Shown here one piece after another: positions 5,569-27,748 of a stretch of 36,668 bases of DNA. Positions within the stretch are counted from its first letter, which is position 1, and each line of letters starts with the position of its first letter. Origin of the DNA: Flavobacteriia bacterium (GTDB taxonomy: Bacteria; Bacteroidota; Bacteroidia; Flavobacteriales_D; Crocinitomicaceae); the NCBI GenBank assembly GCA_947455515.1, contig CANGOF010000014.1:1-36668 (forward strand), in the 5' to 3' direction. A program made the translations under genes and the position numbers. The notes under the pieces are model-generated. The model was given only the letters and a program-made list of their open reading frames with translations, searched no databases and had not been told where the DNA came from.

Positions 5569-5651
5569 GTAGGGATGTTGCTGCTTGTAGGGATGTTGCA
5601 TTGCTTGTAGGGATGTTGCATTGCTTGTACGGATGTTGCATTGCAACATCC
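5569..5651. repeat. Tandem 20-nt repeat ending in a 21-nt palindrome
   Basis: GCTTGTAGGGATGTTGCATT repeated at 5583, 5603 and 5623 (one change in the third). Terminal palindrome GGATGTTGCA-T-TGCAACATCC at 5631-5651. Confidence 0.85.
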
Positions 5652-5681
5652 TTAAAAATCATCCCAATAAAAAAAAATAAT

Positions 5682-6584
5682 ATGAAACACGAATTATCAG
5701 ACCAGGAATTACTAAACGAATTAAAACAACGTTTTGATTTAAATGCTTCCATGCTTATTGAGCAACAAAATTTGATTACGCAATTAAATGAGGTAAATGA
5801 AAAATTACTTCTTTCGGAAACATTGAAAAGTAACTTCTTGTCTAACATTAGAAATGAAATTAATAATCCCATTGCTGCCGTATTGGAATTAGCAAAAAAT
5901 ATTTCAGAAGGTAATTTAGAGGTCCAATCCATGCAAAAATTTGCGACCTTAATTTATTCAGAAGTGTTTGATTTAGATTATCAGTTGAGAAACATTTTTT
6001 TATCTGCAGAAATCGAAGCTGGAGAGGCTCAACTTTCTATAAATACAATCAATATAACAAGTTTCTTAAAGAATTGCATCGACGCATTTGCAACAAAAAT
6101 CAAAAAGAAAAACATTCAGCTCTCCTACAAAAGTGGAGTGGAGGAGGATTTAAATTTCAAAACGGATGCTGAGAAATTACAATTAATTTTAAGTAATATT
6201 ATCGGAAATGCAATTCAATTTAATGCAAATGGTGGGGAAGTATGTATAGAAAGCACCTACGAAAATCACGGCCTTAAAATTGTAATTACTGACAACGGAA
6301 TAGGGATAAAAGAAGAAGATATTGACAAAATTTACGATCGTTTTCACCAGATAGAAGAAGGTTCAACAAAGACCTATGGTGGACATGGTTTAGGATTAAG
6401 TATTTCCAAAGCATTACTAGAAATTATAGATGGAACCATTTCTGTGGAAAGTAAATTTGGGGAAGGAAGCACGTTTACAATTCATCTAAATGAATTAGAA
6501 TCCGTTGATGGACAAGACGATATGTTTTCATCCGTTGGAAATGAATTTTTATTCGAACAAGACGAAGACGACATGTTATTTTAA
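5682..6584 (+). CDS. Histidine-kinase-like ATPase with Asn replacing the H-box His
   Basis: FLSNIRNEINNPIAAVLE aligns to canonical FLANMSHEIRTPLNAILG. N, G1, F and G2 boxes look intact (NIIGNAIQFN, ITDNGIGIKEE, DRFHQ, GGHGLGLSI). ATG at 5682 is preferred over the track start at 5601, which lies inside the tandem repeat. Confidence 0.85.
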   Translation: MKHELSDQELLNELKQRFDLNASMLIEQQNLITQLNEVNEKLLLSETLKSNFLSNIRNEINNPIAAVLELAKNISEGNLEVQSMQKFATLIYSEVFDLDYQLRNIFLSAEIEAGEAQLSINTINITSFLKNCIDAFATKIKKKNIQLSYKSGVEEDLNFKTDAEKLQLILSNIIGNAIQFNANGGEVCIESTYENHGLKIVITDNGIGIKEEDIDKIYDRFHQIEEGSTKTYGGHGLGLSISKALLEIIDGTISVESKFGEGSTFTIHLNELESVDGQDDMFSSVGNEFLFEQDEDDMLF

Positions 6585-9276: not shown

Positions 9277-9666
9277 CTACACCCCTAATGCACGTGTAAT
9301 TTTTTTCTTCAATATTTTGACAGCATCCATATCTTTTATCACATAGTCTGTCGCTCCAGAATCTATCATATCTCCAGCTAATCCTAAACTATCTTGACCA
9401 CTCAACATAATCACACGCATTTCTGGATTGATTGCTAATATCTTTTTTAAAGCTTCTTGACCATTCATAGCATTTGGATCTTCTTTATCTAAATAATAAT
9501 CCAATACAATCAAGTCTGGTCGCTCATGTAAATTTTCTAAACAAGCTTCTGCCGTACTAAATCCTTTTACAGAATAAGATTCGTTTTCCGCTAAATCATC
9601 GGTAACAACTTCTAAGAAAAAGTTATCATCTTCTACAACAAATATTAAGTTTTTTGGATTGGACAT
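9277..9666 (-). CDS. Single-domain response regulator
   Basis: NLIFVVEDDNFFLEVV, DLIVLDYYLD, VIMLSGQ, YVIKDM; REC domain only. Confidence 0.9.
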   Translation of the reverse strand: MSNPKNLIFVVEDDNFFLEVVTDDLAENESYSVKGFSTAEACLENLHERPDLIVLDYYLDKEDPNAMNGQEALKKILAINPEMRVIMLSGQDSLGLAGDMIDSGATDYVIKDMDAVKILKKKITRALGV

Positions 9667-9885: not shown

Positions 9886-12201
9886 TCAATCCAACATGTC
9901 TTGTAGTTCACCATATGCCACCTCACATTGTGATTTAAGCTCAGAAACCAATCCAGCAGTTTCGTCTAAGTTCACTTCATTTTTGGCATTATGTTCAATC
10001 TCTTTGGCAATAACACTTAATTGCGGCATCCCCATGTAGGTGAATTTTGCCTTGAAGGAATGCACCAACGTACCAAGTTCTGCATACTTTTTCTCGTCAA
10101 ACAATGTTTGCATTTTCTCCATTTCTTCTGGAGTAAACTTCAAAAACAAATTTACCATTTTAGCAATTCGTTCTTTATTTCCTTTGGTAAAATCGATAAT
10201 AAAAGCTTTATTTACTACTCCTTCTTGAGTGGCTTCAACCATCGTTTGTTCTTCCTCATTACTTGCTTTGTGCTCTGCTTTTGTTTCCTCTGGCTTTTCG
10301 GTAAATCTTGGATTATTTTTTATAAAAGCTAACTTTTCTTCGGTCAATAAATACTTCATTACCTTTCGGAAAAAATCTTCAGGCTGAAATGGTTTTGTTA
10401 TATAATCATCCATACCACTTAGCCTACTTATTTGTATATCCGACTCTGCAGCATGGGCAGACATAGCGATTATAGGTGTGTGATTTTTTGGAGAGTCAAA
10501 TTCTTCTCGTATTTTTTTAGTTGCGGTATGCCCATCCATTTCGGGCATTTGTATATCCATTAGAATTAAATCGAATGAATTTTTCCTTAACGCTTCCAAT
10601 GCTTCTAATCCATTTTCTGCCTCTGTAATAGCAAATGAAACACCCCATTCTTGCATGGTCTCGATTGCTACAGTTCGGTTAAATATAATATCCTCCACTA
10701 ATAAAACAGAAAAAGTATGCCCTTCTATGGAACGGATAATTTCGTCGGAAATAACATTTATTTTCTCATTGTTTCGAACGATAGCTTCCCCAATTTGATA
10801 AGGAATCGAAAAATAAAAATCAGAACCATGACCTAATTCACTTTCCACATGAATTGCTCCCCCATGAAGTTCAACTAATTGTTTTACAATACTTAATCCA
10901 AGTCCAGTACCACCATATTTTCGCGTAGTACTATCAGATGCTTGGGTAAAACTTTCAAACATTTTTTCCGCATTTTCTTTAGAAATTCCTATTCCAGTAT
11001 CTTTTACGCTAAATTTAATTTGAACCTCATTGTCGTTTAAAAACTTTTCCTGAGTAATAGTAACGGTTACCTTGCCATCTTTTGTGAATTTAACAGCATT
11101 CGAACACAGATTTAAAAGTATCTGATATAATCTTGTAGAATCTCCCTTAACCCAAGGATATAAATTGGGATCTAATTGTAATTCCAAAGTACTTTCATTC
11201 ATTTTCGCTTTTTCCTCACAAGCTGCGATCACTTGGTTGACAATTTCTTCAATCGAAAAACTAACTTTTTCTAAGATAATTTTTCCAGCCTCAATTTTGG
11301 AGAAATCCAAAATATCATTAATAATCACAAGTAGGTTAGAAGCATTGATTTTTATATTGGAGATGAATTCTTTTTGTTTAGGATTTAATTCGGTATTCAT
11401 CACCAAATTGGTAAAACCTATAATAGAGTTCATTGGGGTTCTAATTTCATGACTCATATTCGCTAAAAACATTTCTTTCATTCTTCGAGAATGTTCTGCC
11501 AATTCCTTAGCCTCAACAATATCGTATACCATTTTATCAAATACTGTTGCTAATACACCCAATTCATCTTTTCGATTCATGGATAAATTGGTGTGTTTTT
11601 TATTACGCGAAATGTTGACTGCTGCTTCTGTTAATTTAAGTATTGGATTAGAGATAGTTCGCTGAAAATAGAATAGAAAAGTAAACGTAATACTCAAGAC
11701 AATAACTACAATAAGGGAAAATAATTTTATAAATTGATTTAATTCATTATCAAGCTGGGTGAGTGAGGTTACTATTATCAGAGAAGCTAATTTGGTGTTT
11801 TCATAGGAAATAGATTTATACGTATATAAAAAATGGTCATCAAACTTATTGCTTGTTTTCTCTTTAAGTAATTCCCTTGTTTTTGTAATCGGAACTAATG
11901 AAAATAATTTTTCGGAAAGAAGTACTTTATTAGAATCATAAACCGCGGCATAGGCAATTACTTTTTTATCTTTTAGCCCTTCAATAATATTCAAAATAGA
12001 TAAATTATCCTGAAATATGATAGCCGGCTTTATGTTTTCACTTAAGATTTCTGAAAGTGCATTTGTATCTTCAACTAGTTTGTTTTTACTAGTTTTTTCT
12101 TGAAATAGTACTGTTACAATTCCTATGAGTAAGACGGATAAAGTAATCGCGATTATCGGCCCCCAAATTAATTTACTCTTAAGTGAAATAAATCTAGCCA
12201 T
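9886..12201 (-). CDS. Membrane hybrid histidine kinase: CHASE8-like sensor, HAMP, HisKA, HATPase, REC, Hpt
   Basis: N-terminal ENIKPAIIFQDNLSILNIIEGLKDKKVIAYAAVYDSNKVLL resembles CHASE8. H-box FLANMSHEIRTPMN, G2 GGTGLGLSI, REC LILMDIQMPEMDG and Hpt LVHSFKAKFTYMGM. Confidence 0.9.
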   Translation of the reverse strand: MARFISLKSKLIWGPIIAITLSVLLIGIVTVLFQEKTSKNKLVEDTNALSEILSENIKPAIIFQDNLSILNIIEGLKDKKVIAYAAVYDSNKVLLSEKLFSLVPITKTRELLKEKTSNKFDDHFLYTYKSISYENTKLASLIIVTSLTQLDNELNQFIKLFSLIVVIVLSITFTFLFYFQRTISNPILKLTEAAVNISRNKKHTNLSMNRKDELGVLATVFDKMVYDIVEAKELAEHSRRMKEMFLANMSHEIRTPMNSIIGFTNLVMNTELNPKQKEFISNIKINASNLLVIINDILDFSKIEAGKIILEKVSFSIEEIVNQVIAACEEKAKMNESTLELQLDPNLYPWVKGDSTRLYQILLNLCSNAVKFTKDGKVTVTITQEKFLNDNEVQIKFSVKDTGIGISKENAEKMFESFTQASDSTTRKYGGTGLGLSIVKQLVELHGGAIHVESELGHGSDFYFSIPYQIGEAIVRNNEKINVISDEIIRSIEGHTFSVLLVEDIIFNRTVAIETMQEWGVSFAITEAENGLEALEALRKNSFDLILMDIQMPEMDGHTATKKIREEFDSPKNHTPIIAMSAHAAESDIQISRLSGMDDYITKPFQPEDFFRKVMKYLLTEEKLAFIKNNPRFTEKPEETKAEHKASNEEEQTMVEATQEGVVNKAFIIDFTKGNKERIAKMVNLFLKFTPEEMEKMQTLFDEKKYAELGTLVHSFKAKFTYMGMPQLSVIAKEIEHNAKNEVNLDETAGLVSELKSQCEVAYGELQDMLD

Positions 12202-12203
12202 AC

Positions 12204-14201
12204 TTACTTTTTAGAGAGTGTATAGGTTAGTTTTAAAGAAACCTCTCTTCCCGTAGCTCGAAATGGATTCTTATCGTTGTTGTATGCACTTAGATATAAA
12301 TAATTACTATTCAACACATCAAAAAGTCCTACTCTCGCTTGCAATCCTTTAACCCCTAACGAATTTAATGTTACGGTTAGATTCCAAATAACGGTAGGAT
12401 TAAATTTCTTTTGCGTTTGTTCTGGTCCCATTCCTTCTACGAATCCATACCTTCTTCCTATTACTATCACAGAAGAAGATAGGTCAACAATTTTCCCAAA
12501 TTTATAGGTGCCACTAAAAGTTGTTTTGTGAGGCGAAAAAGCAATTAAATTTTTTGAATCCAAGGATTGGTATTTGTCGACATCATTTTTAACAACTTGA
12601 TAATAAGAATAATTACCACCTAAAGTCAAATTACCTTTATGAAATAAAGCTTCAGCCTCAATACCTCTTGTTGTCAAATTTTTATAGTTATTGTAATTTT
12701 CTATATTATCAATCACGCCATACACGATAACATTCGAAATAGAATTATTATATCCATTGATACTCAGCTGTAAATGGCGAGAAATTTTATAAGCAATTTG
12801 AAGTTCTAAAACACGAGTAATTTCAGGCTTCAAACTTGAATTTAAAATTAAATTTTCAGTAACTGGTGCTCTAAATGCATGGCTATATGCAAGTTTAAAG
12901 TTGAATTTTTCAAGTTGTTTAGTTGCAGCAAATCGCGGTAATAATACATTTCCAAAGGCCGAATGATTTTCTTGCCTTAACCCAAAAGAGGCAGTGTAAG
13001 TTGGTTTTTGTATAAATAATTCTGCATAATTAAACCAGTCTCTATACCTTGCGAAAACGGAGTCTTTTTTCGTAATACTAATAGGATACGATGCATTATT
13101 TTGTGTTGCTTGATCCAAGAAATAACCTGTTCCAATATTTAATTGGATGGCTTCCGATACTTTTAATTGTCCTGAAAGCGACCCAGTTAATCGCAAAATA
13201 CCGTGGTCATAAAAATAGTAGGAATTATCATTTACTGTCTCTGAGGATCGATATGGACGATTATAGTTTGCATTGAATCTCGGAATTAGTTTGAAGCGAT
13301 TTGTAACCTTCCAATTGTAAGTAACATCTAATTGACGTGTACTAAAATTGGACATTCCCGGTTTTTTTAAAATGGAGTCAATTTGGTAAGGTGTACGTGT
13401 ATTGTAATCCTCGTGAAAATATTTAAATACTAAATCTTTGTAATTCGCATGAAGTAAAAACTGGGTAGGGGTTACATAATTGGTTTTATTTTGATTTTGA
13501 ACAACAGATTTTTCATGATCTGTAAAAGTTCCTTCAGCTCTGTAAAGTTCACTTTTGGTAAAACTCGCTTTTACACCCCACTTTTCATTTCCCCATCCAC
13601 TGGTAATACTGAATTTTTGTCTACCTAAACTATTATCCAAACGACTATAAGTCCCATTCAATTCTATTCCTTGTATGTCTTTTGCTTTTTTTGTAATGAT
13701 ATTAATTACTGCTAAACCGGCATATCCATTGTAAGCAGCATAACCAGGACCTCTTATAATTTCTACTTTTTCAATTTGATTAATGTCAAAGCGGCCAATC
13801 CATTGTGTAGAACCATATAAATTTTCATTCATTTGAAGTCCATCAATCATAACCAGAACTTTTCCTTCAGTGGAATAGATGCCTCGCATTCCAATACCAA
13901 CTTCGGAGTTTACATCCGCGGCAAATTCAAATCCAGGAATTAAACGCATTACATCGGTAAAATCTTTCGAAGCACTACGTTCGATGTCATCTTTGGTTAT
14001 AACCGTAACAATCGCTGGTGTTTGCTCGATACTTAATTCTTTTTGTGAAGCAACAGTCAATTTAACATTCATTAAATCTTCCAATCCAATATCGTCAGAA
14101 AAGTCTATTTGACCCACAGTTTTTGTACTGTCTTGACCATTAACGACTAAAGAAAAGGTTAAAATGAATACTAGTATGTAAATGAGGTTTATTTTTTTCA
14201 T
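12204..14201 (-). CDS. TonB-dependent receptor
   Basis: Signal peptide; plug domain (TPAIVTVITKDDIERSASKDFTDVMRLIPGFEF...GMRGI...VLVMIDG...IEKVEIIRGPGYAAYNGYAGLAVINIITK), then a long beta-barrel. Confidence 0.92.
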   Translation of the reverse strand: MKKINLIYILVFILTFSLVVNGQDSTKTVGQIDFSDDIGLEDLMNVKLTVASQKELSIEQTPAIVTVITKDDIERSASKDFTDVMRLIPGFEFAADVNSEVGIGMRGIYSTEGKVLVMIDGLQMNENLYGSTQWIGRFDINQIEKVEIIRGPGYAAYNGYAGLAVINIITKKAKDIQGIELNGTYSRLDNSLGRQKFSITSGWGNEKWGVKASFTKSELYRAEGTFTDHEKSVVQNQNKTNYVTPTQFLLHANYKDLVFKYFHEDYNTRTPYQIDSILKKPGMSNFSTRQLDVTYNWKVTNRFKLIPRFNANYNRPYRSSETVNDNSYYFYDHGILRLTGSLSGQLKVSEAIQLNIGTGYFLDQATQNNASYPISITKKDSVFARYRDWFNYAELFIQKPTYTASFGLRQENHSAFGNVLLPRFAATKQLEKFNFKLAYSHAFRAPVTENLILNSSLKPEITRVLELQIAYKISRHLQLSINGYNNSISNVIVYGVIDNIENYNNYKNLTTRGIEAEALFHKGNLTLGGNYSYYQVVKNDVDKYQSLDSKNLIAFSPHKTTFSGTYKFGKIVDLSSSVIVIGRRYGFVEGMGPEQTQKKFNPTVIWNLTVTLNSLGVKGLQARVGLFDVLNSNYLYLSAYNNDKNPFRATGREVSLKLTYTLSKK

Positions 14202-14207
14202 ATAAAT

Positions 14208-14834
14208 CTATTTATAAACTTTAATAGCTAAGTTCATTAAAGAACTGGACACCTCTAAATTATTTATGGATGTTAGCGTATTATTGATTTCAAATTTATA
14301 ACTGTCATCAATATTTCTTAAATTGATACAGGATAGTTTCAACGGAATAGGGGTAGTATTCGTAATGACTAATACATTCGATAATGCACCTTTTTGAAAT
14401 TGACTCTCCGCTTGTTTAATATATTGATCATCTACATAAAGTAATTCACAAGGTGGTACTTTTTCACCTGGGGAAATTGTCTTAACAATAATGGGTTTGC
14501 CATTCACCTGTTTCGCAGCTTTCAATTGATTAAAATAGTTGGTAATTGGAGAATTCCCATACACCACAATCACAAAATCATTGGTTGCTGGTGTTGTCCA
14601 TTTTACGTATTTCGTGAAATTGTAAATTAATAAGGTTTGAATCTTATATTCAGAATCTGTAGTAACAGTTTTTCCTACCGAAAGTAACAAAAATGATAGA
14701 ATTACTATGGTTACAATTTTCTTCAAAAATCTTATTTTAATTTGGAAGTACAAAAGTAAGTTAAAATACGTAATAACCAACGCTTTCCTTAAAATATTAC
14801 AGGGTAAATATATGCTATACAATTCATCCAACAA
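14208..14834 (-). CDS. YfiR/DUF4154-like periplasmic protein
   Basis: SEYKIQTLLIYNFTKYVKWTTP...FVIVVYGNSP...PPCELLYVDDQYIKQA...SCINLRNIDDSYKFEIN is a YfiR-like pattern. The real start is probably internal, for example TTG at 14726 (LKKIVTIVILSFLLLSVGKT signal peptide). Confidence 0.75.
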   Translation of the reverse strand: MLDELYSIYLPCNILRKALVITYFNLLLYFQIKIRFLKKIVTIVILSFLLLSVGKTVTTDSEYKIQTLLIYNFTKYVKWTTPATNDFVIVVYGNSPITNYFNQLKAAKQVNGKPIIVKTISPGEKVPPCELLYVDDQYIKQAESQFQKGALSNVLVITNTTPIPLKLSCINLRNIDDSYKFEINNTLTSINNLEVSSSLMNLAIKVYK

Positions 14835-14836
14835 AC

Positions 14837-14912
14837 CGACTCCAGCGGAGTCATACCTTGCTTGCCTGTGGCAAGCTATTCTCCATCACGACTCCATCGG
14901 AGTCGCAAATTG
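14837..14912. repeat. REP-like repeats with an internal GCTTGCC-TGT-GGCAAGC hairpin
   Basis: CGACTCCAGCGGAGTCATACCTTGCT, GCTTGCCTGTGGCAAGC, CGACTCCATCGGAGTCGCAAATTGCT. Confidence 0.75.
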
Positions 14913-17732
14913 CTCTAACACAATATATGCTAACTTCGTCTGGCCCTCCAAATAGTTAAATAATTCTTGTATCTCTTCCAAAGCCCCTTCTTCTTTCGCT
15001 AGATATTCAATTTTCTTCGCTGTTTCTGAAAGTTCAGCCATACCCATATACATATATTTAGGTTTAAAGGAATGAGCAAGCGTCTGTATTGCAGCATAAT
15101 TTACTTCATCAATCAAAGACTTTAATCGTGCTAATTCATTTGGAGTATCCTTCAAGAACATACTAACCATTTTGTGTATACGTTCTTTTTTACCATTCGT
15201 AAAATCCTCGATAGCTTGAAAATAAATGCTCACTGTTGTAGTAGGTTTTTCTACTATTTGCTCGATCGGAACAACCGTTTGTCGAGCATATTTCTTAATT
15301 TTTTCAATTAGTTCATTTCCATCAAATGGCTTAGAAATATAATCATTCATCCCATTTTCGTAACAACGTGCAATTTCCTCAGTAAAAGCATGTGCTGTAA
15401 CTGCAATAATAGGGGTAGAGCATGCTGGCTCAGCTAATTCAGTTCGAATAATTTTACTCGCCTCATGTCCATCCATTATTGGCATTTGAATATCCATTAA
15501 AATGAGATTAAACGCGTTTTTTTGTAATGCATCAACGGCTTCTTCTCCATTTTCAGCCAACTGAATCTGTACCTTTGGATTCCAACCTTCAATGGTTTCT
15601 ATCGCTACCATTTGATTGAAAGAATTGTCTTCAACAAGTAGGATTTTTAATACTTCACTGTCTGTTCGTGTCTCGTTTGAAATCTTGTTTTCTGAGCGTT
15701 CATTTATTGGAAAACGAATCACAAATTCACTTCCTAAGCCAACCCAACTGGAAACTTGTATCGATCCTCCTATTAGTTCAACAATTTGTTTGCAAATAGG
15801 TAATTCAAAACCGGAAGTTTTTGGTTTGAATTCCGTTTGATCTTCGTTTAGCTCTAATGCTTCAAAAAGTACTTTCTGTTGCTCTTCGGTATATCCTTTC
15901 CCTGAATCAATCACTTTGAATAGTAAAAAGGATGCACTTCCCTGACTTTCCAATGCAGCAGCAAGTATTATTTCTCCTTTTTCTGTCATAAGAATACTGG
16001 AAGTGATTAATTGAGTTAACACTCTTTTTAAATGAGTTACATCGCCATTTTGCAAATCCTCTACTTCTTTTTCAATAAAATAACGTAAGGAAATATTTTT
16101 TTTAGTTGCCTCATGGATAGTGTTGGAAATAATACTACTTAATAATTCTTTAATGGAATAATTTTCAATCCGAATGGTAATTCCATCACTTGAAAGATCC
16201 TTGAAATTCAATACTTTGTTTACAATAGTTAACAGTTTCTTGGAACTATTCTGAATTTCGGTAAGGTATTCTTTTTGAGCAGGATGTTGAATTTCTATAG
16301 TTGAAAATAAATTCGAAATTCCAAGGATGGTATTAAGTGGAGTTCGTATCTCCGATTGCAAATTTGCTAATAAAGACGTGTACTGTTGATTCAAAGTTTC
16401 AGAAAATTCTTTTTCTTTCTGAAGGGATTGATTATTTTTTTCTAATAATTGGAGACGAGATTGCTCCGAATAATCTTGTATTGTACCATTAATCTCGATT
16501 ACTTTTTTCTGTTCATTTAATTGTAAAACAACATTTGCTAAAACTGGAATAATACTAAAGTTTTTTCGGACAATACGGTATTGAAGGGAAAACGATTTCC
16601 CTGTCTCAAATGCCGAAGTAAACATGGATTCATATGCACTATAATCGTCTGGATGAATTAACTCTTTCATCTCAAGAGCATGAATATCTGTTGACGTAGG
16701 TAGTTGAAATAACTCATACATATAATCCGACCAGGTATACTTACCGGTGATATAATTACGACTAAAACTACCTGTTTTTGCAATGCGTTGCGCAAATTTT
16801 AATTTGTTTTCTCGATCAATTTGTTGGGTAATATTTCGGGAAAAAACACAGGTGCCTCGTACTATTTTCTTGTTATTTTTAATTGGGTAAAAAGAATGTT
16901 CATAGACTTGTGCATTGGTTTCTTCTTCCTGAATGATTGTGAAAATTTCTCCAGATAATGCACGTTGGTAATATGTTTCCCATTCTTCTTTTAAGGTGGA
17001 GGTGATAATCAATAAATCTATTTTTTTTCCAACAGCGATAGAATGCATTCCTTGAAGTTGAAAATGCTTTAATGCCGCATTATTTGCGCTTAGTAATTTG
17101 TATTTTAAATCGATGGACCAAATCAAATCGGAAGTGTTTTCTGTAATCGCGGTAAAATTGGCTTCATTGTGTTTTAATCGTATTTCTGCCTTGATCTTCA
17201 TATTAATCCCTACGAAAATTACGATACTGATACAGCTAATAATTAGAATTACCATAATAGGGGAAATATCACCCTTAGGCGCTATAAAAGCAGTGATAAT
17301 AGAGATACACGTTGCGTAAACAATGTAAATATTTAAATGTAAATTTTTACGAAAAACCAAGGAGGTTCCTACATAAACCATTACTATCCCTACTAAGTGA
17401 TTCATCGAGTAGCCTCGTAAAAAAGCAATGTAGGTTAGATGACTAAACCCAACATATACCAAAATAGAGATAATAGTATAAAATCGATGTTGGATACGCT
17501 TCGAATAATAGGAGGCTCCAACGGAAATAGTAATTAATATACTGAATGCAATTCGCTGATATAGTATACTTAAAGTCTCATCTGCCGGTTTGTGAACAAA
17601 CGTATTGATATACCCAAAAACAGGATAAAGTAACAAGGTAAGAATTAGAAGTCGTCGATATATGCTTAAATCTTCCGCTTGTTTAAGTGTAAGATGTACA
17701 TTTTGTATGGCAGCTTTATTTTTTGTGTTCAA
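14886..17732 (-). CDS. Membrane PAS hybrid 'pseudokinase' with intact REC and Hpt
   Basis: Multi-TM N-terminus and PAS domains. HisKA-like LLANLQSEIRTPLNTILG (His to Ser), N-box ITSSILMTEKGEI and G2 KTSGFELPI are degenerate. REC (VEDNSFNQM, LILMDIQMPIMDG, SKPF) and Hpt (LAHSFKPKYMYMGM) are intact. Confidence 0.88.
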   Translation of the reverse strand: MNTKNKAAIQNVHLTLKQAEDLSIYRRLLILTLLLYPVFGYINTFVHKPADETLSILYQRIAFSILITISVGASYYSKRIQHRFYTIISILVYVGFSHLTYIAFLRGYSMNHLVGIVMVYVGTSLVFRKNLHLNIYIVYATCISIITAFIAPKGDISPIMVILIISCISIVIFVGINMKIKAEIRLKHNEANFTAITENTSDLIWSIDLKYKLLSANNAALKHFQLQGMHSIAVGKKIDLLIITSTLKEEWETYYQRALSGEIFTIIQEEETNAQVYEHSFYPIKNNKKIVRGTCVFSRNITQQIDRENKLKFAQRIAKTGSFSRNYITGKYTWSDYMYELFQLPTSTDIHALEMKELIHPDDYSAYESMFTSAFETGKSFSLQYRIVRKNFSIIPVLANVVLQLNEQKKVIEINGTIQDYSEQSRLQLLEKNNQSLQKEKEFSETLNQQYTSLLANLQSEIRTPLNTILGISNLFSTIEIQHPAQKEYLTEIQNSSKKLLTIVNKVLNFKDLSSDGITIRIENYSIKELLSSIISNTIHEATKKNISLRYFIEKEVEDLQNGDVTHLKRVLTQLITSSILMTEKGEIILAAALESQGSASFLLFKVIDSGKGYTEEQQKVLFEALELNEDQTEFKPKTSGFELPICKQIVELIGGSIQVSSWVGLGSEFVIRFPINERSENKISNETRTDSEVLKILLVEDNSFNQMVAIETIEGWNPKVQIQLAENGEEAVDALQKNAFNLILMDIQMPIMDGHEASKIIRTELAEPACSTPIIAVTAHAFTEEIARCYENGMNDYISKPFDGNELIEKIKKYARQTVVPIEQIVEKPTTTVSIYFQAIEDFTNGKKERIHKMVSMFLKDTPNELARLKSLIDEVNYAAIQTLAHSFKPKYMYMGMAELSETAKKIEYLAKEEGALEEIQELFNYLEGQTKLAYIVLEQFATPMES

Positions 17733-17749: not shown

Positions 17750-20700
17750 TTACTTTAAAAAATCTGTTTGTAACCAATAAGTTATCTTAGAAAATAAATC
17801 TTCTTCTTTGAAAGGTTTGGAAATATAATCATTCATTCCACTTTGGATACACGCTTCAATTTCTGAAGGGGTTGCTTGTGCAGTCATTGCTAATATTGGG
17901 ATGCGAATACCATATTCATTCCTCGCTTTTTGGGTAGCTTCATGTCCATCCATTTCTGGCATTTGAATATCCATCAACACTAGATCATACGAATTTTGCT
18001 GCAATTTCTCTAATGCGATAATACCATTTTCTGCGATATCTATTTGTAATTCGCCATGCCAATCTTTTAATGTGTCCTCCGCTACCATTTGATTAAATGG
18101 ATTATCTTCAACAAGCAAAATTCGATATTTCCCTATTAGTTCTGTAATTTGTAGAGGGATTTCAAAATTGGTTTGTTGTGCTTTCGCGGCTGCTAATTGA
18201 AAATTCAACTCAAAATAAAAAGTAGAACCAACATTAGGTTCGCTTTCTACATGTATTTCAGAATGTAAAGCTTTTATGATTTGATTAGAAATGGATAATC
18301 CTAAACCTGTCCCTCCATAAAGACGTGTAGTAGATGATTTTTCTTGAGAAAAAGGATCAAATATACTACCTATTTTATCCGCTTCGATACCAATACCAGT
18401 ATCTTTAATTTCAAATTTTATTCGTACTTGATTCTCATCTTTACTTACAAGTTTCAAATTTAGTTGAACATTTCCTTCATGGGTAAATTTAATTGCGTTA
18501 TTTGTTAGGTTTAATAAAACTTGATTCAAACGGGTAGAATCTCCAAGTAATAAAGAAGGTATTTCCTCTTCTATAGTAGATTTAAGCTCTATTTTCTTTT
18601 TATATGCAACTAAATGAAGGGATTTACTAACATTGTGCACCAATTCCTTGATGTCAAAATTTACCTTTTCAATTTCCAATTTACCTTCTTCAATTTTGGA
18701 TATGTCAAGGATGTCATTGATAATATTTAATAGGTTTTTTGAATTCAATTTGATGGTTTTCATATAATCCATTTGTTTAGGATTCAACGTTCCTACCTTT
18801 TCCATTAAATTACTTAGACCTAAAATAGAATTCATTGGCGTACGTATCTCGTGACTCATATTAGCTAAAAAACGTTCTTTTACTCTCGTTTTTTGTTCTG
18901 CTAATTCTTTGTCTTTTTGTAATTCAATGTTATTCAATTGCAAACGTTCTTGTTCTTTTTTCTCTGTGATTTCATAACGTATGGAGAAATATTGACTCGG
19001 TTTTCCTTGGTGATCTAAAAAGGGAACAATCAATGTATCTACCCAATAATATTCTCCAAACTTATTGACATTGCAAAGTTCTCCTCTCCAAGTTTTTCCC
19101 GAAGATATACTTTCCCAAAGCTCTTCAAATATAGTAGGAGGATTTTTGTCTGATTTCAAAATACGGTGATTCTTTCCTATTAATTCTGCTTCGGAATAGC
19201 CAGAAACTCTCGAAAACATTTCATTCGCAAAGATGATATTTCCTTGAACATCTGAAATGGATACTATCGCAATTTGATTCAATGCAGTTTTGTAATCCTG
19301 AACAGATTTTAAGGCGTTTTTTAAGTTTTCTTCCTGCTCTTTCTCCTTAGAAATGTCTTTAGAAATACCTAAATATCCTTGCACATTTCCATCTATATCA
19401 AGTACGGTATTCACCGATAATGAAACAAGTAAGTGTGATCCATCTTTTCGTACGTAAGTCCATTCGCGACTATCAGGAATTCCTGTTTTACTTGCCTTGG
19501 CATGAAACGTTTCTAATCCCAATGTGACAGGATATCCTAATTCTTCGCTTAACTCCTTTGTTCTTGCAATCATTTCACTTTCTAAGTGAAAAATAGATGG
19601 ATTTATTTTGTACAATACTTCATCACTTGAGTATCCTAACAATTTTTCGGCCCCATGATTAAATAATACGATGGTTCCTTCTAAATCTGTGGCAACGATA
19701 GCATATTCTGTTGAATTTACAATAGAATCTAGTTTGATCAGCGCATCGTTGAGTTGCTTTTCTTGTTTTTTTTCTATGCTAATATCTTGAGCAGTCCCTT
19801 TTATACCTACAATTTCACCTGACAATCCAATCGTTGCATTTCCTAAACCTCGTATGTGTTTTTCTTGATTGTTGGATAGAAGTACGCGATGGTTAAACTC
19901 AAAAGGTTGACCAGTATTAATTGTTTTTTCTACCAAAGGGTCCAATTTCAGAAAGTCTTCTGGATGAATTTTTGATCGATAAACGTCGTATAAGATTTCA
20001 TTCGGAGTATCGTAGGCGATTTCAAAAATATCATAATGCTCCTTACTCCAAAATAAATTGCTTGTTTTAAAGTCTAATTCCCAGTTACCTACCTTGGAAA
20101 TGCGTTGCGCTTCTTCTAATCGCGTTTGGTTAAGTTTGTTTTCTATCTCAAAGTGTTTTTTATCTGTAATGTCTTTACATGAACCTAAAATGCGATAACG
20201 AGTTCCGTCTTCTCTTGTTAAAAAATTAGCAATGTCATTAATCCATAGTATTTCATTACTTTCTTGATGGATAATGCGATACTCAATATTAAAATCTCCA
20301 GATATTAAAAAAGCATCGAATGCGTTTTCAACGAGTTTCTTATCCTCAGGGTGAATAATATCTACCCATAAATTAGGAAACTCAACGAGTTGATTTGGAT
20401 CTAAACCAAAAATTTCTTTCACCTTGTTATTTACAAAATAGATTTCTGTAAATTCAATGTTTGAAGACCATACAACATAAGAGAGAGCATTTAAACTAGC
20501 TAAATGTTCTTCTTTAGATAAAAATGTAGATCCTAATTCTTCCCCTAATATATTAATTCCTGTGGCAATAGTATCAAATGAATCAAACTTGTCACTTAAA
20601 GGAATAGTGTGATTAAAATCATGCTTCACATAGGATGTAATGGTTTCCAACATGAGATCAAGTTGAGAATTATTCAAATAATATGTTTGATTCTGAAGTT

Positions 20701-20833
20701 GTTCTGCATGTTTTTGAAGGTTTTTGAAAATTTTATGTTCCAGATCATTTCCTTCAGCAGTATCTAGGGAATTAAGTTTATCAAATTCACCGTTCAACAA
20801 TACTTCTGATAATTCAAGTAGTTTTTCTAACAT
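17750..20833 (-). CDS. Soluble multi-PAS hybrid histidine kinase with C-terminal REC
   Basis: Several PAS/PAC motifs, H-box FLANMSHEIRTPMNSILG, G2 GGTGLGLSI, REC LVLMDIQMPEMDG...SKPF. No clear TM and no Hpt. Confidence 0.92.
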   Translation of the reverse strand: MLEKLLELSEVLLNGEFDKLNSLDTAEGNDLEHKIFKNLQKHAEQLQNQTYYLNNSQLDLMLETITSYVKHDFNHTIPLSDKFDSFDTIATGINILGEELGSTFLSKEEHLASLNALSYVVWSSNIEFTEIYFVNNKVKEIFGLDPNQLVEFPNLWVDIIHPEDKKLVENAFDAFLISGDFNIEYRIIHQESNEILWINDIANFLTREDGTRYRILGSCKDITDKKHFEIENKLNQTRLEEAQRISKVGNWELDFKTSNLFWSKEHYDIFEIAYDTPNEILYDVYRSKIHPEDFLKLDPLVEKTINTGQPFEFNHRVLLSNNQEKHIRGLGNATIGLSGEIVGIKGTAQDISIEKKQEKQLNDALIKLDSIVNSTEYAIVATDLEGTIVLFNHGAEKLLGYSSDEVLYKINPSIFHLESEMIARTKELSEELGYPVTLGLETFHAKASKTGIPDSREWTYVRKDGSHLLVSLSVNTVLDIDGNVQGYLGISKDISKEKEQEENLKNALKSVQDYKTALNQIAIVSISDVQGNIIFANEMFSRVSGYSEAELIGKNHRILKSDKNPPTIFEELWESISSGKTWRGELCNVNKFGEYYWVDTLIVPFLDHQGKPSQYFSIRYEITEKKEQERLQLNNIELQKDKELAEQKTRVKERFLANMSHEIRTPMNSILGLSNLMEKVGTLNPKQMDYMKTIKLNSKNLLNIINDILDISKIEEGKLEIEKVNFDIKELVHNVSKSLHLVAYKKKIELKSTIEEEIPSLLLGDSTRLNQVLLNLTNNAIKFTHEGNVQLNLKLVSKDENQVRIKFEIKDTGIGIEADKIGSIFDPFSQEKSSTTRLYGGTGLGLSISNQIIKALHSEIHVESEPNVGSTFYFELNFQLAAAKAQQTNFEIPLQITELIGKYRILLVEDNPFNQMVAEDTLKDWHGELQIDIAENGIIALEKLQQNSYDLVLMDIQMPEMDGHEATQKARNEYGIRIPILAMTAQATPSEIEACIQSGMNDYISKPFKEEDLFSKITYWLQTDFLK

Positions 20834-21163: not shown

Positions 21164-21922
21164 ATGTATAAATTTTTAATTTTCCCTTTGTTATTCGTTT
21201 GTTTGAATAGTTTTGGTCAAGATGCTCCAGTCATTTTTGATCGTCCAGGAGTTTCAGACAGTCCATACATCGTAGATTCAAATCGTTGGATTGTAGAGTC
21301 AGGGATCAGTTTTTCGGATCAATCAGATGTTTCTAGCGTACTTACCCCAAATATTATGCTTAGAAAACACCTTGGATTTAAAACGGAACTTAGGGCTACC
21401 TATAACTATTCCCCGCAAATGATGGGTATGATGAATAAAAACCAAGACCTAGGTTTTGATTTTATTGCGTTGGGCTTCAAACGTAAATTATGGGTTGAAA
21501 AATCAGGTTTACCAGAAGCGAGTATGATTATTAATTCATTTTATCCTACACAACGCCTTGCTTCATTTAAACAAAATGACATTTATAACTTAGAAGTTTG
21601 TTTTCAATTTCAAAGCCATTTCTCCGATTATTTCGCCTTGAATTACAACGTTGGTACGATTTTTACGAATCAATACAAAAAAGGAATTGTAAATTATTCC
21701 TTGTGTGCTACGGGTTTGATTCACAAAAATATAGAAGCCTTTGTAGAAGGTTTTGGATATAGCGCTACGAATGAACTCGCTGAATTTGGCTACGATGCAG
21801 GAATCATATTTTACCCCAATCGCTGGTCGCAGATCGATGTGTCTGTTGTCAATAATCGACTATATACAACGACCTATTCTGGTGTATTCTTGGGGTATTC
21901 ATTTAGTATAAACACTAAATAA
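21164..21922 (+). CDS. Outer-membrane/transporter-like protein (Phenol_MetA_deg-like)
   Basis: Signal peptide, then FDRPGVSDSPYIVDSNRWIVESGISF...LTPNIMLRKHLGFKTELRATYNYSP; beta-barrel-like. Confidence 0.6.
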   Translation: MYKFLIFPLLFVCLNSFGQDAPVIFDRPGVSDSPYIVDSNRWIVESGISFSDQSDVSSVLTPNIMLRKHLGFKTELRATYNYSPQMMGMMNKNQDLGFDFIALGFKRKLWVEKSGLPEASMIINSFYPTQRLASFKQNDIYNLEVCFQFQSHFSDYFALNYNVGTIFTNQYKKGIVNYSLCATGLIHKNIEAFVEGFGYSATNELAEFGYDAGIIFYPNRWSQIDVSVVNNRLYTTTYSGVFLGYSFSINTK

Positions 21923-23573: not shown

Positions 23574-23696
23574 ATTCCCTATAAATGAGGATAATATATT
23601 CGTATAATTCAATATATTTTAAGTTTATTGACGTATAATAAAATTATTTTATATATTTTTAGATGCGAATTATTTTTAAAACAAAAACAACGTATT

Positions 23697-26249
23697 ATGG
23701 AGGTAGATAACACCGAAAAAAAAACCAAGAAATCCATTGGTTTAAAAAAGAAAAAAATAGGAAGTAAGTTAGCAATTATATTGATTATCAATTCACTTAC
23801 TATTTTTTTACTTGGGTTAGTGTCTTTTTATGGCTTACAAAAACTATTGTCTTCCAACGAACAAATTTTTGTTAATTCTAAAGTGTTAAACACACAATTA
23901 GAGTTAGAAAAAGAAAAAGATAATATCAACGGTGATATCTACGTTGGGGTATTATTAAATAAAAGTGATGAAACAGAAGTGAAACGCTACAAAGCGAATT
24001 TTTATAACCACATAAATTCCTTTAAAAAGCATTTATTTATTCTGGAAAAAAACAAAAAATCTACTTTCGTTAAAGAAATAAAAAAGAATATTCCAGATCT
24101 TCACGAGTTTAGTAAGTTGAGTGTAGACTTGGTGCAAGCTACCTTAAACCAAGACATGAGTGCTTTTGAGTTGTTACCATTGTACAAAGAAAAGTATGAA
24201 GTAATCACTGTCTCAGCGAAAAAATTATCAGAAAAATTATCCAAAGAATCTGATTTATTAGCAAAAGAAAATAAATTTACTTCCATTCAGATTTCAGGAT
24301 TTATCGTAGGATTCAGTATTATCGCATTGCTTATTGCTGTACTTATAAGCATGTATATTAATCGTTTAATTAAAGGTTCGGTTTCATTTATCCAAAAAAT
24401 GATTTCTAACCTATTAGTTGGTGAGTTAGAAGTGGAAGAAGATTCAAAACAAGTAAATCAAGAAGATTCAAACGATGAATTAGTGAAAATTGGCTATTCG
24501 TTAAATGATTACATGCATTCTTTAAAAAACACAGCAGATTATGCTCGTGAAATTGGAAAAGGGAATTTTGAACTATCCTATGCTCCTTTAAGTGAAAAAG
24601 ATGAATTAGGATTGTCGTTAATGGAAATGAAAGCAAGTTTAGAAAAAATTGCGGATGAAGATAAAAAACGTAACTGGGCAACAGAAGGACTCGCTAAGTT
24701 CGGTGAAATTTTACGTAACAATAACGATGGTCTAAGTATTCTTGGAGACAACATCATCTCAAACTTAGTAAGATACCTTGGTGCAAACCAAGGAGGTTTA
24801 TTCGTAGTGAATGATAACGATACAAACGATAAGCACCTTGAATTAATTGCTTGTTATGCTTGGAACAAAAAGAAGTACATCAACATGCGTGTCGACGAAG
24901 GGGAGGGATTAGTTGGTCAGGCATGGCAAGAAAATGACACACTATTCATCACAGATGTTCCAGAAGATTATGTGAAAATTACTTCTGGTCTTGGAGATGC
25001 AAATCCAAAATCATTTCTGATAGTTCCGTTAGCTGTGAATGATGAAATTTTTGGAGTTGTTGAAATAGCAGCTTTCTTTGAATTTGAGCAATATCACATT
25101 GATTTTGTAAACAAATTAGCAGAAAGTATCGCTTCTACTTTATCTACAGCGAAAACCAATGAACGCACAAAAATCTTGTTAGAGCAATCACAACAACAAA
25201 CAGAAGAAATGCGTGCGCAAGAAGAGGAAATGCGTCAAAACATGGAAGAGATGCAAGCGACACAAGAAGAGATGGAGCGCAAAGAAGGGGAGATGACGCG
25301 TATGGTGGAGCAAATGCAACAACAAGAAGAGGAAATGCGTCAAAACATGGAAGAAATGGAGGCTACGCAAGAGGAGATGGAAAAACAAAATGCCATTATT
25401 GCAGATAAAGCAGCAGAATCAAATGGAATTTTAGATGGTATCAATGCAACCATGGCAACGGTAGAATTTACACCACAAGGAATCGTTACTACAGCAAATG
25501 CAAACTTCTTAAATACAATGAAAACAGAGTTGCAAGAAGTGAGTGGTATGCCGCATAGTGGGTTTGTACCTGCTGAAATTCTTAATTCGGTTGAATACAA
25601 AACATTCTGGTCTGATTTAGCTGCTGGAAAAGACAAAAAAGGAATCTTTAAACGTATCAATGCTGCAGGTGAAATAGTTTGGTTAGATGCGATTTACAAT
25701 CCAATCAAAAATGCGGAGGGCAAAGTAGTGAAAGTGGTAAAATTTGCTACAGACATAACTGAAAAACGAGAAATGGAGGCGCAGTCCAAAGCACAAAATG
25801 ATATTATCAATGATATTGCGATTGTATCCAAAACAGATTTAAAAGGAAACATCACCTATGTGAATGAAGAATTCTTAAAATGGTCTAAATATACTTTAGA
25901 GGAAGTCATGGGTAAAAACCACAGAATGCTTAAATCTGGAGACCAGGAAGATAAGATTTTTGTAGATATGTGGAAAACAATTTCTTCTGGAAAAATATTC
26001 CGCGGTGAAATTAAAAACAAAGCCAAGGACGGATCATTCTATTGGGTAGATGCAATCATAGCTCCAATTTTAGATGAAAATGGAAAACCAAAAGAATACA
26101 TTGCGCAGCGTTTTGTGATTAATGATGTTATCGAACAAAAAGAGCGCGATTATGCCACTAAAAAACTATACGAAGGAGAAATTAATACCATGTATGACAA
26201 ATGGTATAATCAATTGAAGCGTATGGAAAAAAATATTAATTCTAAATAA
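23697..26249 (+). CDS. Output-less receptor A: 4HB-like sensor, TM, HAMP-like, GAF, Met-rich coiled coil, two PAS
   Basis: TM helices flank a helical periplasmic segment. GAF (NQGGLFVVND...GEGLVGQAWQENDTLFITDVP), repeated EEEMRQNMEEMQATQEEMER, two PAS. No HisKA, HATPase, GGDEF or MCP signalling hairpin. ATG 23697 (MEVDNTEKK) preferred over track start 23628. Confidence 0.85.
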   Translation: MEVDNTEKKTKKSIGLKKKKIGSKLAIILIINSLTIFLLGLVSFYGLQKLLSSNEQIFVNSKVLNTQLELEKEKDNINGDIYVGVLLNKSDETEVKRYKANFYNHINSFKKHLFILEKNKKSTFVKEIKKNIPDLHEFSKLSVDLVQATLNQDMSAFELLPLYKEKYEVITVSAKKLSEKLSKESDLLAKENKFTSIQISGFIVGFSIIALLIAVLISMYINRLIKGSVSFIQKMISNLLVGELEVEEDSKQVNQEDSNDELVKIGYSLNDYMHSLKNTADYAREIGKGNFELSYAPLSEKDELGLSLMEMKASLEKIADEDKKRNWATEGLAKFGEILRNNNDGLSILGDNIISNLVRYLGANQGGLFVVNDNDTNDKHLELIACYAWNKKKYINMRVDEGEGLVGQAWQENDTLFITDVPEDYVKITSGLGDANPKSFLIVPLAVNDEIFGVVEIAAFFEFEQYHIDFVNKLAESIASTLSTAKTNERTKILLEQSQQQTEEMRAQEEEMRQNMEEMQATQEEMERKEGEMTRMVEQMQQQEEEMRQNMEEMEATQEEMEKQNAIIADKAAESNGILDGINATMATVEFTPQGIVTTANANFLNTMKTELQEVSGMPHSGFVPAEILNSVEYKTFWSDLAAGKDKKGIFKRINAAGEIVWLDAIYNPIKNAEGKVVKVVKFATDITEKREMEAQSKAQNDIINDIAIVSKTDLKGNITYVNEEFLKWSKYTLEEVMGKNHRMLKSGDQEDKIFVDMWKTISSGKIFRGEIKNKAKDGSFYWVDAIIAPILDENGKPKEYIAQRFVINDVIEQKERDYATKKLYEGEINTMYDKWYNQLKRMEKNINSK

Positions 26250-26257
26250 GCACAGCC

Positions 26258-26608
26258 ATGGTACTTGATTTTTTTATAGCAAAGCAAAAACATAGAATGT
26301 GGATGATCAACATGAAAGCATATTTGCTGAATGTAGAAGATTTTAAAGCGGAAAATGTTGCTAAACATACGGATTGTGATCTTGGAAAATGGATTTATGG
26401 CTATGCAATTAACGCATTTAAAGGAAATAGTCATTTTGATGAATTAGAAAAAATTCACCAAGAATTACATAAAACAATTGTAAACATTATTCAATTAAAA
26501 GAAGCTGGAAGCCTCGAAGAAGCGAACCAATCGTTCACAAGCTTAGAAGAAATTTCCGGAAAAATATTACAACTATTAGATATTCTAGAACTAGAATCCG
26601 CAGCGTAA
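26258..26608 (+). CDS. Standalone CZB (chemoreceptor zinc-binding) domain protein
   Basis: KHRMW...DCDLGKWIYG...HFDELEKIHQELHK matches the CZB 3His/1Cys pattern. Starts 8 nt after receptor A. Confidence 0.85.
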   Translation: MVLDFFIAKQKHRMWMINMKAYLLNVEDFKAENVAKHTDCDLGKWIYGYAINAFKGNSHFDELEKIHQELHKTIVNIIQLKEAGSLEEANQSFTSLEEISGKILQLLDILELESAA

Positions 26609-26660: not shown

Positions 26661-26765
26661 GTCTCCCCATCTCCCTGCCTCCCTACCTCCCCATCTCCCT
26701 ACCTCCCCATCTCCCTACCTCCCCATCTCCCTGCCTCCCTGCCTCCCCATCCGTCCCCCCCTGAC
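26661..26765. repeat. Polypyrimidine 16-nt-type tandem repeat (CTCCCTACCTCCCCAT)
   Basis: Repeated CTCCCTRCCTCCCCAT. The complementary strand has regularly spaced GGG/GGGG runs. Confidence 0.85.
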
Positions 26766-26835
26766 CCCAGCGGGGTCACACATCGCTAGCCATGCAATGG
26801 CGACGCGTTCCGACTCCAGAGGAGTCGTACATCGC
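26763..26835. repeat. Composite REP-like element, left of the transposase
   Basis: GACCCCAGCGGGGTC-ACACATCGCTA-GCCATGCAATGGC-GACGCGTTCC-GACTCCAGAGGAGTC-GTACATCGCT. Confidence 0.85.
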
Positions 26836-26839
26836 TGTA

Positions 26840-27316
26840 TCACACATTGCTTGACCCTATTCCCCCATCAAACAAATATTTTTCATCATATTCCACCGCA
26901 TTTTGTTCTAACATTCCTACATATTCCTCTCCAAAACTTTGCCTAGCATGATGATCTTTCTGATTCAACACATACTTTATCACCCTCTCCACATGTGAAT
27001 TACTGTAAGAAAATGCTCCAAACCCTTCTTGCCATTGAAATTTATGAGGCAGCAAATTAGTCTCGTTAATATAATTCGTCGAATACTTTTTTACCTCTCG
27101 TACCAAATCAGATAAATTACAGGTTGGTTTCATCCCAATGAAAATATGAATATGATCTTCAACACCATTTATTGCCAGTAATTTTTGTCCTTTTTGTTGA
27201 ATAATTCCAGTAATTATTTTGAAAACCTGACCTTCAAAATGAGGTAAAATACAAGCTTGTCTATACTTTACTGCGAAAACTACTTGAATGTGAATTTGAG
27301 AATACGTGTTTGCCAT
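26840..27316 (-). mobile_element. Y1 (HUH, IS200-like / RAYT-like) transposase gene
   Basis: VEDHIHIFIGMKP (HUH motif) and VIKYVLNQKDHHARQSF (catalytic Tyr helix); 158 aa; intact ORF lying between REP-like arrays. Confidence 0.88.
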
Positions 27317-27420: not shown

Positions 27421-27644
27421 CTTCCCTTCCATCCCTTGACCCCAGCTGGATCAAACATCGCTTCCCTTTCATCCCTTGACCCCAGCTGGACCCACACATC
27501 GCTTCCCTTTCATCCCTTGACCCCAGCTGGACCCACACATCGCTTCCCTATCATCCCCTTCCACCCCTTGACCCCAGCTGGACCCACACATCGCTTCCCT
27601 TTCATCCCCCTTCCATCCCTTGACTCCAGCGGAGTCACACATCG
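27421..27644. repeat. Five-unit minisatellite carrying REP-like cores
   Basis: Units of 40, 41, 41, 51 and 51 nt: CTTCCCTTTCATCCCTTGACCCCAGCTGGACCCACACATCG. The last unit carries GACTCCAGCGGAGTC. Confidence 0.88.
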
Positions 27645-27748
27645 CTAGCCATGCAATGGCGACGCGTTCCGACCCCAGAGGGGTCGCATATTGCTTGCCA
27701 TGGCAAGCAATTATTTAACACCGACTCCAGAGGAGTCGTACATCGCTA
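27622..27748. repeat. Composite REP-like element, right of the transposase
   Basis: GACTCCAGCGGAGTC-ACACATCGCTA-GCCATGCAATGGC-GACGCGTTCC-GACCCCAGAGGGGTC-GCATATT-GCTTGCCATGGCAAGC...GACTCCAGAGGAGTC-GTACATCGCT. Positions 27634-27672 are identical to 26775-26813. Confidence 0.87.

Follow-up and report, generated by a model that had tools for sequence, protein, structure and literature searches.

What becomes of a membrane-bound hybrid histidine kinase when its kinase core appears to be dead while its receiver and phosphotransfer domains stay intact? The question is raised by a gene at 14886-17732 on the minus strand of the window, by which we mean the whole 36,668-nucleotide stretch of Flavobacteriia bacterium DNA analysed here. 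To our knowledge, few histidine pseudokinases have been studied, most of them of such age that their origin can no longer be traced. In the present case, three congeneric species carry active homologues, and in two of these the genomic context is shared. Because active homologues survive within the genus, the states before and after the loss, and the shift in constraint on each domain, can be compared directly. Furthermore, a genome survey based on domain counts would take this pseudokinase for an active kinase.

The gene forms an open frame of 948 codons without internal stops, and begins with TTG, as do the homologues in the same-genus genomes G005 and G006. Its product of 948 amino acids starts with a hydrophobic membrane region (residues 1-192; 17157-17732), the first 190 residues of which are strongly hydrophobic, with four to five hydropathy segments located within residues 28-182. 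This region is followed by two PAS domains (Pfam PAS_4 and PAS_3; residues 193-430; 16443-17156), a degenerate HisKA or DHp region (residues 431-520; 16173-16442), a degenerate HATPase or CA region (residues 521-690; 15663-16172), a REC domain (15288-15653) and a terminal Hpt domain (14898-15182), all on the minus strand. HisKA, HATPase_c, REC and Hpt score 38, 53, 88 and 31 bits, respectively, in Pfam, all above the cut-offs, and their occurrence in one chain is the layout of an unorthodox (HK-REC-Hpt) kinase.

HisKA kinases need the phosphoacceptor His and the N- and G2-boxes for autophosphorylation. In this protein, the H-box reads LLANLQSEIRTPLN, with H460S (Ser codon at 16353-16355, minus strand) at a position that holds His in G005, G006, G004 and the more distant G020. 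Alignment with the homologues places N578S (codon at 15999-16001, minus strand) and K581L in the N-box, which reads TQLITSSILMT. The G2 box reads KTSGFEL, in which T639-S-G-F-E643 (15804-15818, minus strand) replaces GTGLG; G639T and G643E have thus occurred, and the middle glycine, G641, is retained. The G1 box (DSGKG, from D609) is also retained, as are E461 and T464 of the ExxT phosphatase motif, the His before them being Ser. Outside the core, E701/D702, D747, T779 and K801 of the REC domain are intact, as are H887, K890 and G897, the H-K-G signature of the Hpt domain. The protein therefore has the layout of an unorthodox kinase but fails its catalytic requirements, and is a histidine pseudokinase in the sense that Pfam still recognises a fold whose catalytic residues are replaced. 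A sequence-only reading of this DNA had described the H-, N- and G2-boxes as degenerate, with His replaced by Ser at exactly this codon, and the REC and Hpt domains as intact; residue checks and Pfam scores bear out both descriptions.

The rarity of this combination was assessed among all ORFs of 250 aa or more from the loci compared, using a HisKA-HATPase profile built from canonical members. Both columns could be aligned in 163 domains, a sample in which hybrid kinases of the type sought are over-represented, and the pseudokinase was the only one (1/163) without the H, the N and the two G2 glycines; the other deviants carried solely a His to Asn change, with an intact ATP site. Since phosphoacceptor, N-box and G2-box are all gone, autophosphorylation is predicted from these residues to be very unlikely, and the view of the protein as a dead kinase appears well supported by its sequence. 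An assembly error was considered as the cause and is unlikely, because the many substitutions are in-frame and concentrated in one domain pair, and are not frameshifts.

The N-terminal half of the pseudokinase served as query in a search for homologues across 240 genomes of the family. Full-length relatives came only from G005, G006 and G004, all of the same genus, and distant relatives from G020 and G078; a contig scan outside the genus gave a best identity of 34-35% and nothing closer. The closest homologue, that of G005, is 61% identical to the pseudokinase and has the upstream gene in common. It ends with its contig at about residue 735, and its REC-Hpt end was not found on other contigs; the G006 homologue is split over two contigs with small overlap differences, and was joined for alignment only. 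The boxes read FLANMSHEIRTPMN / LISNSLKFT / SGTGLGL in G005 and FLASMSHEIRTPMN / LLSNSVKFT / SGTGLGL in G006, and are canonical in G004, G020 and G078 also.

Intact boxes in orthologues, as a sign of recent decay, were among the findings that the sequence-only reading had named as evidence against itself, and the canonical boxes of the three same-genus and two distant homologues correct the earlier picture in this respect: the degeneracy is not old in the family. Conservation of the dead state across relatives, which would speak for a stable function although a pseudokinase does not strictly require it, is not seen: none of the 240 genomes yielded a second case, and the dead form is known only from a single assembly that is metagenome-like and incomplete (167 contigs, 87% complete). 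Since the homologues all keep canonical boxes, the simplest account of these sequences is that the degeneracy is recent rather than an old family property, and that the loss occurred on the window lineage.

Change in each domain was followed by Tajima relative-rate tests on amino-acid changes, comparing the window protein with that of G005 (outgroup G006 or G004) and with that of G006 (outgroup G004). These tests replaced absolute dN/dS because synonymous sites are saturated and the CA-domain fit failed; per-region codon models were dropped on the same grounds, and saturation makes it uncertain how strong, in absolute terms, selection is on each domain. With G006 as outgroup, the kinase core shows 58 changes unique to the window against 18 unique to G005 (p=4e-6), whereas the sensor shows 38 against 33 (p=0.55), a contrast with a Fisher p of 0.005; neither the membrane region nor the PAS domains are accelerated relative to G005. 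Within the core, the DHp region (24:4, p=1.6e-4) is among the fastest-changing parts, and the CA region is likewise accelerated (34:14, p=0.004). The core contrast between the window and G005 is weaker with G004 as outgroup (39:23, p=0.04). Against G006, the core is again accelerated (45:23, p=0.008), and neither the REC (16:12, p=0.45) nor the Hpt domain (10:9, p=0.82) is significantly so. The acceleration is hence significant in the kinase core alone, and the relaxed selection on REC and Hpt that would have spoken against a retained function was not seen. The direct contrast between the core and REC plus Hpt is not significant (45:23 versus 32:23, p=0.45); for this reason we describe the REC-Hpt end as non-accelerated, and not as more constrained.

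Of the positions that are invariant in four homologues, the core has changed at 23 of 59 and the sensor at 4 of 73 (Fisher p=2e-6), so that the change in the core exceeds what chance would produce. The frame nevertheless stays open over 260 core codons despite 142 amino-acid differences from G005, where some 6 stops per 100 random nonsynonymous changes are expected. A joint codon model, in which branch lengths lie at their bounds, yields a core omega of 0.15 on the window branch against 0.04 on the G005 branch (p=1.6e-4), and omega=1 is rejected. Preservation of the hydrophobic core was also examined: 16 of 21 changed sites are still hydrophobic, which does not differ from random one-step changes (p=0.14), and we therefore make no claim of constraint on the fold.

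The pseudokinase gene lies in a co-directional series of genes on the minus strand. A soluble PAS hybrid kinase (HisKA-HATPase-REC by Pfam; 17750-20833), canonical and without an Hpt, is encoded 17 bp upstream and is the proposed phosphate donor. A DUF4154 (YfiR/HmsC-like) protein (14208-14834; PF13689, 93 bits) is encoded from 51 bp downstream, followed by a TonB-dependent receptor-like outer membrane protein (12204-14201; PF07715 Plug) and by a hybrid kinase of CHASE8-HAMP type that carries both REC and Hpt (9886-12201; Pfam), also canonical, which may be an alternative donor or a heterodimer partner. Both neighbouring hybrid kinases keep canonical boxes, as had been claimed for 9886-12201 and 17750-20833. 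A single-domain response regulator on the same strand (9277-9666; PF00072, 64 bits) may represent the output. Only six Hpt domains are detectable in the organism's own genome.

A homologue of the soluble kinase is located directly upstream of the membrane hybrid in G005 and G006 also. Linkage of a REC-bearing kinase without Hpt to an Hpt-bearing sensor, the arrangement expected of a shared Hpt, is consequently present in the window, G005 and G006; the window and G005 have in common the upstream soluble kinase and the genes past it, and the G004 homologue of the membrane hybrid is preceded, on its own strand, by four Hpt-less kinases. At the DNA level, the sensor half of the soluble kinase (codons 1-630) is about 95% identical to that of G005, and from codon ~635 on identity falls to about 75% and third positions are saturated. 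This change marks a sharp recombination boundary near 18930, at the sensor-kinase junction.

The YfiR-TonB receptor-CHASE8 kinase module (9886-14834, minus strand) has its own distribution. In G006, where it is partly duplicated in tandem on C41, it is found on a contig without the membrane hybrid gene, and a glycosyltransferase-like gene lies downstream of the membrane hybrid homologue. In G004, the module faces a homologue of 21164-21922. No YfiR homologue was found in G005, in which the cluster is cut earlier. Among the genomes compared, only the window has the membrane hybrid and this module in one co-directional cluster. Its layout is reminiscent of YfiR/YfiN, except that the position of the diguanylate cyclase is filled by a hybrid histidine kinase.

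Our preferred reading, to which we assign a probability of about 0.45, is that a former unorthodox membrane sensor kinase (H1-D1-H2) of one Bacteroidota lineage has lost its autokinase activity and now serves, anchored in the membrane and linked to a sensor, as a phosphotransfer module that receives its phosphate from a neighbouring kinase. Because D747 and H887 are retained and its own core is dead, any phosphate on the pseudokinase would come from another kinase; since the residues for self-phosphorylation are lost and the end modules conserved, a phosphate relay from the neighbouring kinases is the likeliest account. The most economical, and most likely, donor is the soluble kinase. It would autophosphorylate and pass phosphate onto its own REC, from which it would move to the Hpt of the pseudokinase; alternatively, the His of the soluble kinase may phosphorylate the REC of the pseudokinase. 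The Hpt would then feed a response regulator, and the retained, dead DHp-CA fold would allow the membrane and PAS region to control where the REC-Hpt end lies or how accessible it is. REC similarity is no guide to the partner, the soluble kinase (0.54) and the CHASE8 kinase (0.53) being indistinguishable; phosphotransfer, partner and output are inferred. Of the earlier proposal that a dead kinase is kept as a REC-Hpt relay, the first half stands on the sequence, and the second has indirect support, as REC and Hpt are non-accelerated and their signature residues all persist. A relay or hub role is plausible on these features. The first of the two routes has a precedent in the demonstrated phosphorelay from LadS to the Hpt of GacS, in which a kinase of H1+D1 type without Hpt borrows that of another unorthodox sensor in the membrane, as would the soluble kinase here; GacS, the Hpt owner, is however an active kinase, while the pseudokinase is predicted to be dead (PMC4866733).

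A more ambitious version of the preferred reading, which we hold only tentatively, is that the locus provides a snapshot of an unorthodox kinase becoming a membrane-bound, sensor-gated REC-Hpt hub, its core made redundant by neighbouring kinases. The core is dead only in the genome where the membrane hybrid is seen to cluster co-directionally with the YfiR-TonB-CHASE8 module.

The same features may be read as those of a negative regulator akin to RetS of Pseudomonas aeruginosa, in which the dead core heterodimerises with the neighbouring CHASE8 or soluble kinase, dephosphorylates it through ExxT or drains its phosphate through D747; inhibition or draining of this kind would depend on the same retained residues as the relay. 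RetS is likewise a membrane hybrid sensor with a degenerate HATPase that lacks G-boxes and with an active receiver, and cannot autophosphorylate (as predicted for the pseudokinase), the loss of its G-boxes alone being enough; it receives phosphate from GacS on its REC2, and its phosphatase action depends on the T of HExxT (PMC5992135). The pseudokinase combines degenerate G-boxes with an intact REC and retains E461, T464 and the G1 box, and a laboratory-evolved ChrS pseudokinase has been found to heterodimerise with its paralogue (PMC9491836). The comparison is one of features and not of sequence relationship, and RetS differs in keeping the H-box His and in having two REC domains, whereas the pseudokinase lacks the His and the N-box and has an Hpt. 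Moreover, the DHp helix, the would-be dimer or docking interface, is among the fastest-changing parts (24:4), and a conserved DHp interface is therefore not suggested. We regard such a regulator as unlikely, though as a serious contender. That same fast-changing helix weighs against a reversal of the kind seen in DivL of Caulobacter, a PAS-containing, kinase-inactive protein of kinase fold in which Tyr replaces the phosphoacceptor His and which has been repurposed to bind DivK~P (PMC4211667). By this account, the dead DHp-CA would bind a phosphorylated response regulator, perhaps the downstream single-domain regulator (9277-9666), and report to the sensor or to REC-Hpt. It needs a conserved DHp docking surface and leaves the retention of REC and Hpt, in which the pseudokinase differs from the DivK~P sensor DivL, unexplained; we consider it very improbable.

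A further possibility is early decay, by which the core would have lost its function recently and the gene as a whole would be disappearing, with REC and Hpt looking intact for lack of time. The boxes are indeed intact in all homologues, the core is clearly relaxed, and a pair of REP-like palindromes reaches into the 3' end of the gene, whose final codons and stop it provides. Yet the 948-codon frame is open and without frameshift, the sensor, REC and Hpt are not accelerated, and 23 invariant core residues have already changed, so that the loss is not very fresh. In the joint codon model, the core rejects omega=1 along the window branch, which points the same way, weakly owing to saturation. 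We find decay rather improbable on balance.

Our preferred reading, a REC-Hpt module fed from a neighbouring kinase, may be set beside two further dead kinases. CC3162 (CCNA_03265) of Caulobacter is a hybrid kinase without the conserved His and with an intact REC Asp, for which the authors propose phosphorylation by an Hpt or heterodimerisation, the mechanism being unproven, as here; the passage that describes CC3162 mentions no Hpt domain, which the pseudokinase has (PMC11481889). ChrS(CA-fs), evolved in the laboratory in Corynebacterium glutamicum, resembles our case in that a recent CA loss produced a pseudokinase, with a paralogous kinase serving its regulator, but arose by a frameshift in a two-component kinase, as opposed to substitutions in a REC- and Hpt-bearing hybrid (PMC9491836). 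Dead kinases of this sort are clearly known already, and, judged by its residues, the protein at 14886-17732 is a well-resolved, lineage-specific new example; no described case of a hybrid pseudokinase of this exact make-up, with REC and Hpt kept, was found in the open-access papers searched.

Other features of the window deserve mention. In a che cluster, between CheR and CheD, a plus-strand gene (5601-6584) encodes a HATPase protein with intact N- and G2-boxes, in which the His of the H-box (FLSNIRNEINNPI) is replaced by Asn. Because this Asn is conserved in homologues from G005 (99% identical) and from G001 and G010 (58-59%), the protein looks like a conserved, pseudokinase-like component of a chemotaxis-like system. 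The REP-like palindromes (GACTCCGnTGGAGTC) have 14 strand matches with at most two mismatches in the window, where 0.06 are expected. They occur at 14838-14904, 26763-26826, 27622-27737 and elsewhere, are paired ~50 or 100 bp apart, and flank a Y1 transposase gene of IS200-like type (26840-27316), an arrangement found in REP-RAYT systems. The plus strand further encodes three large sensor proteins with GAF/PAS domains (23628-26249, 27870-30749 and 31052-33394), one of them with PilJ and HAMP; no output domain was recognised in the three, and the first is followed by a small CZB zinc-binding protein (26258-26608).
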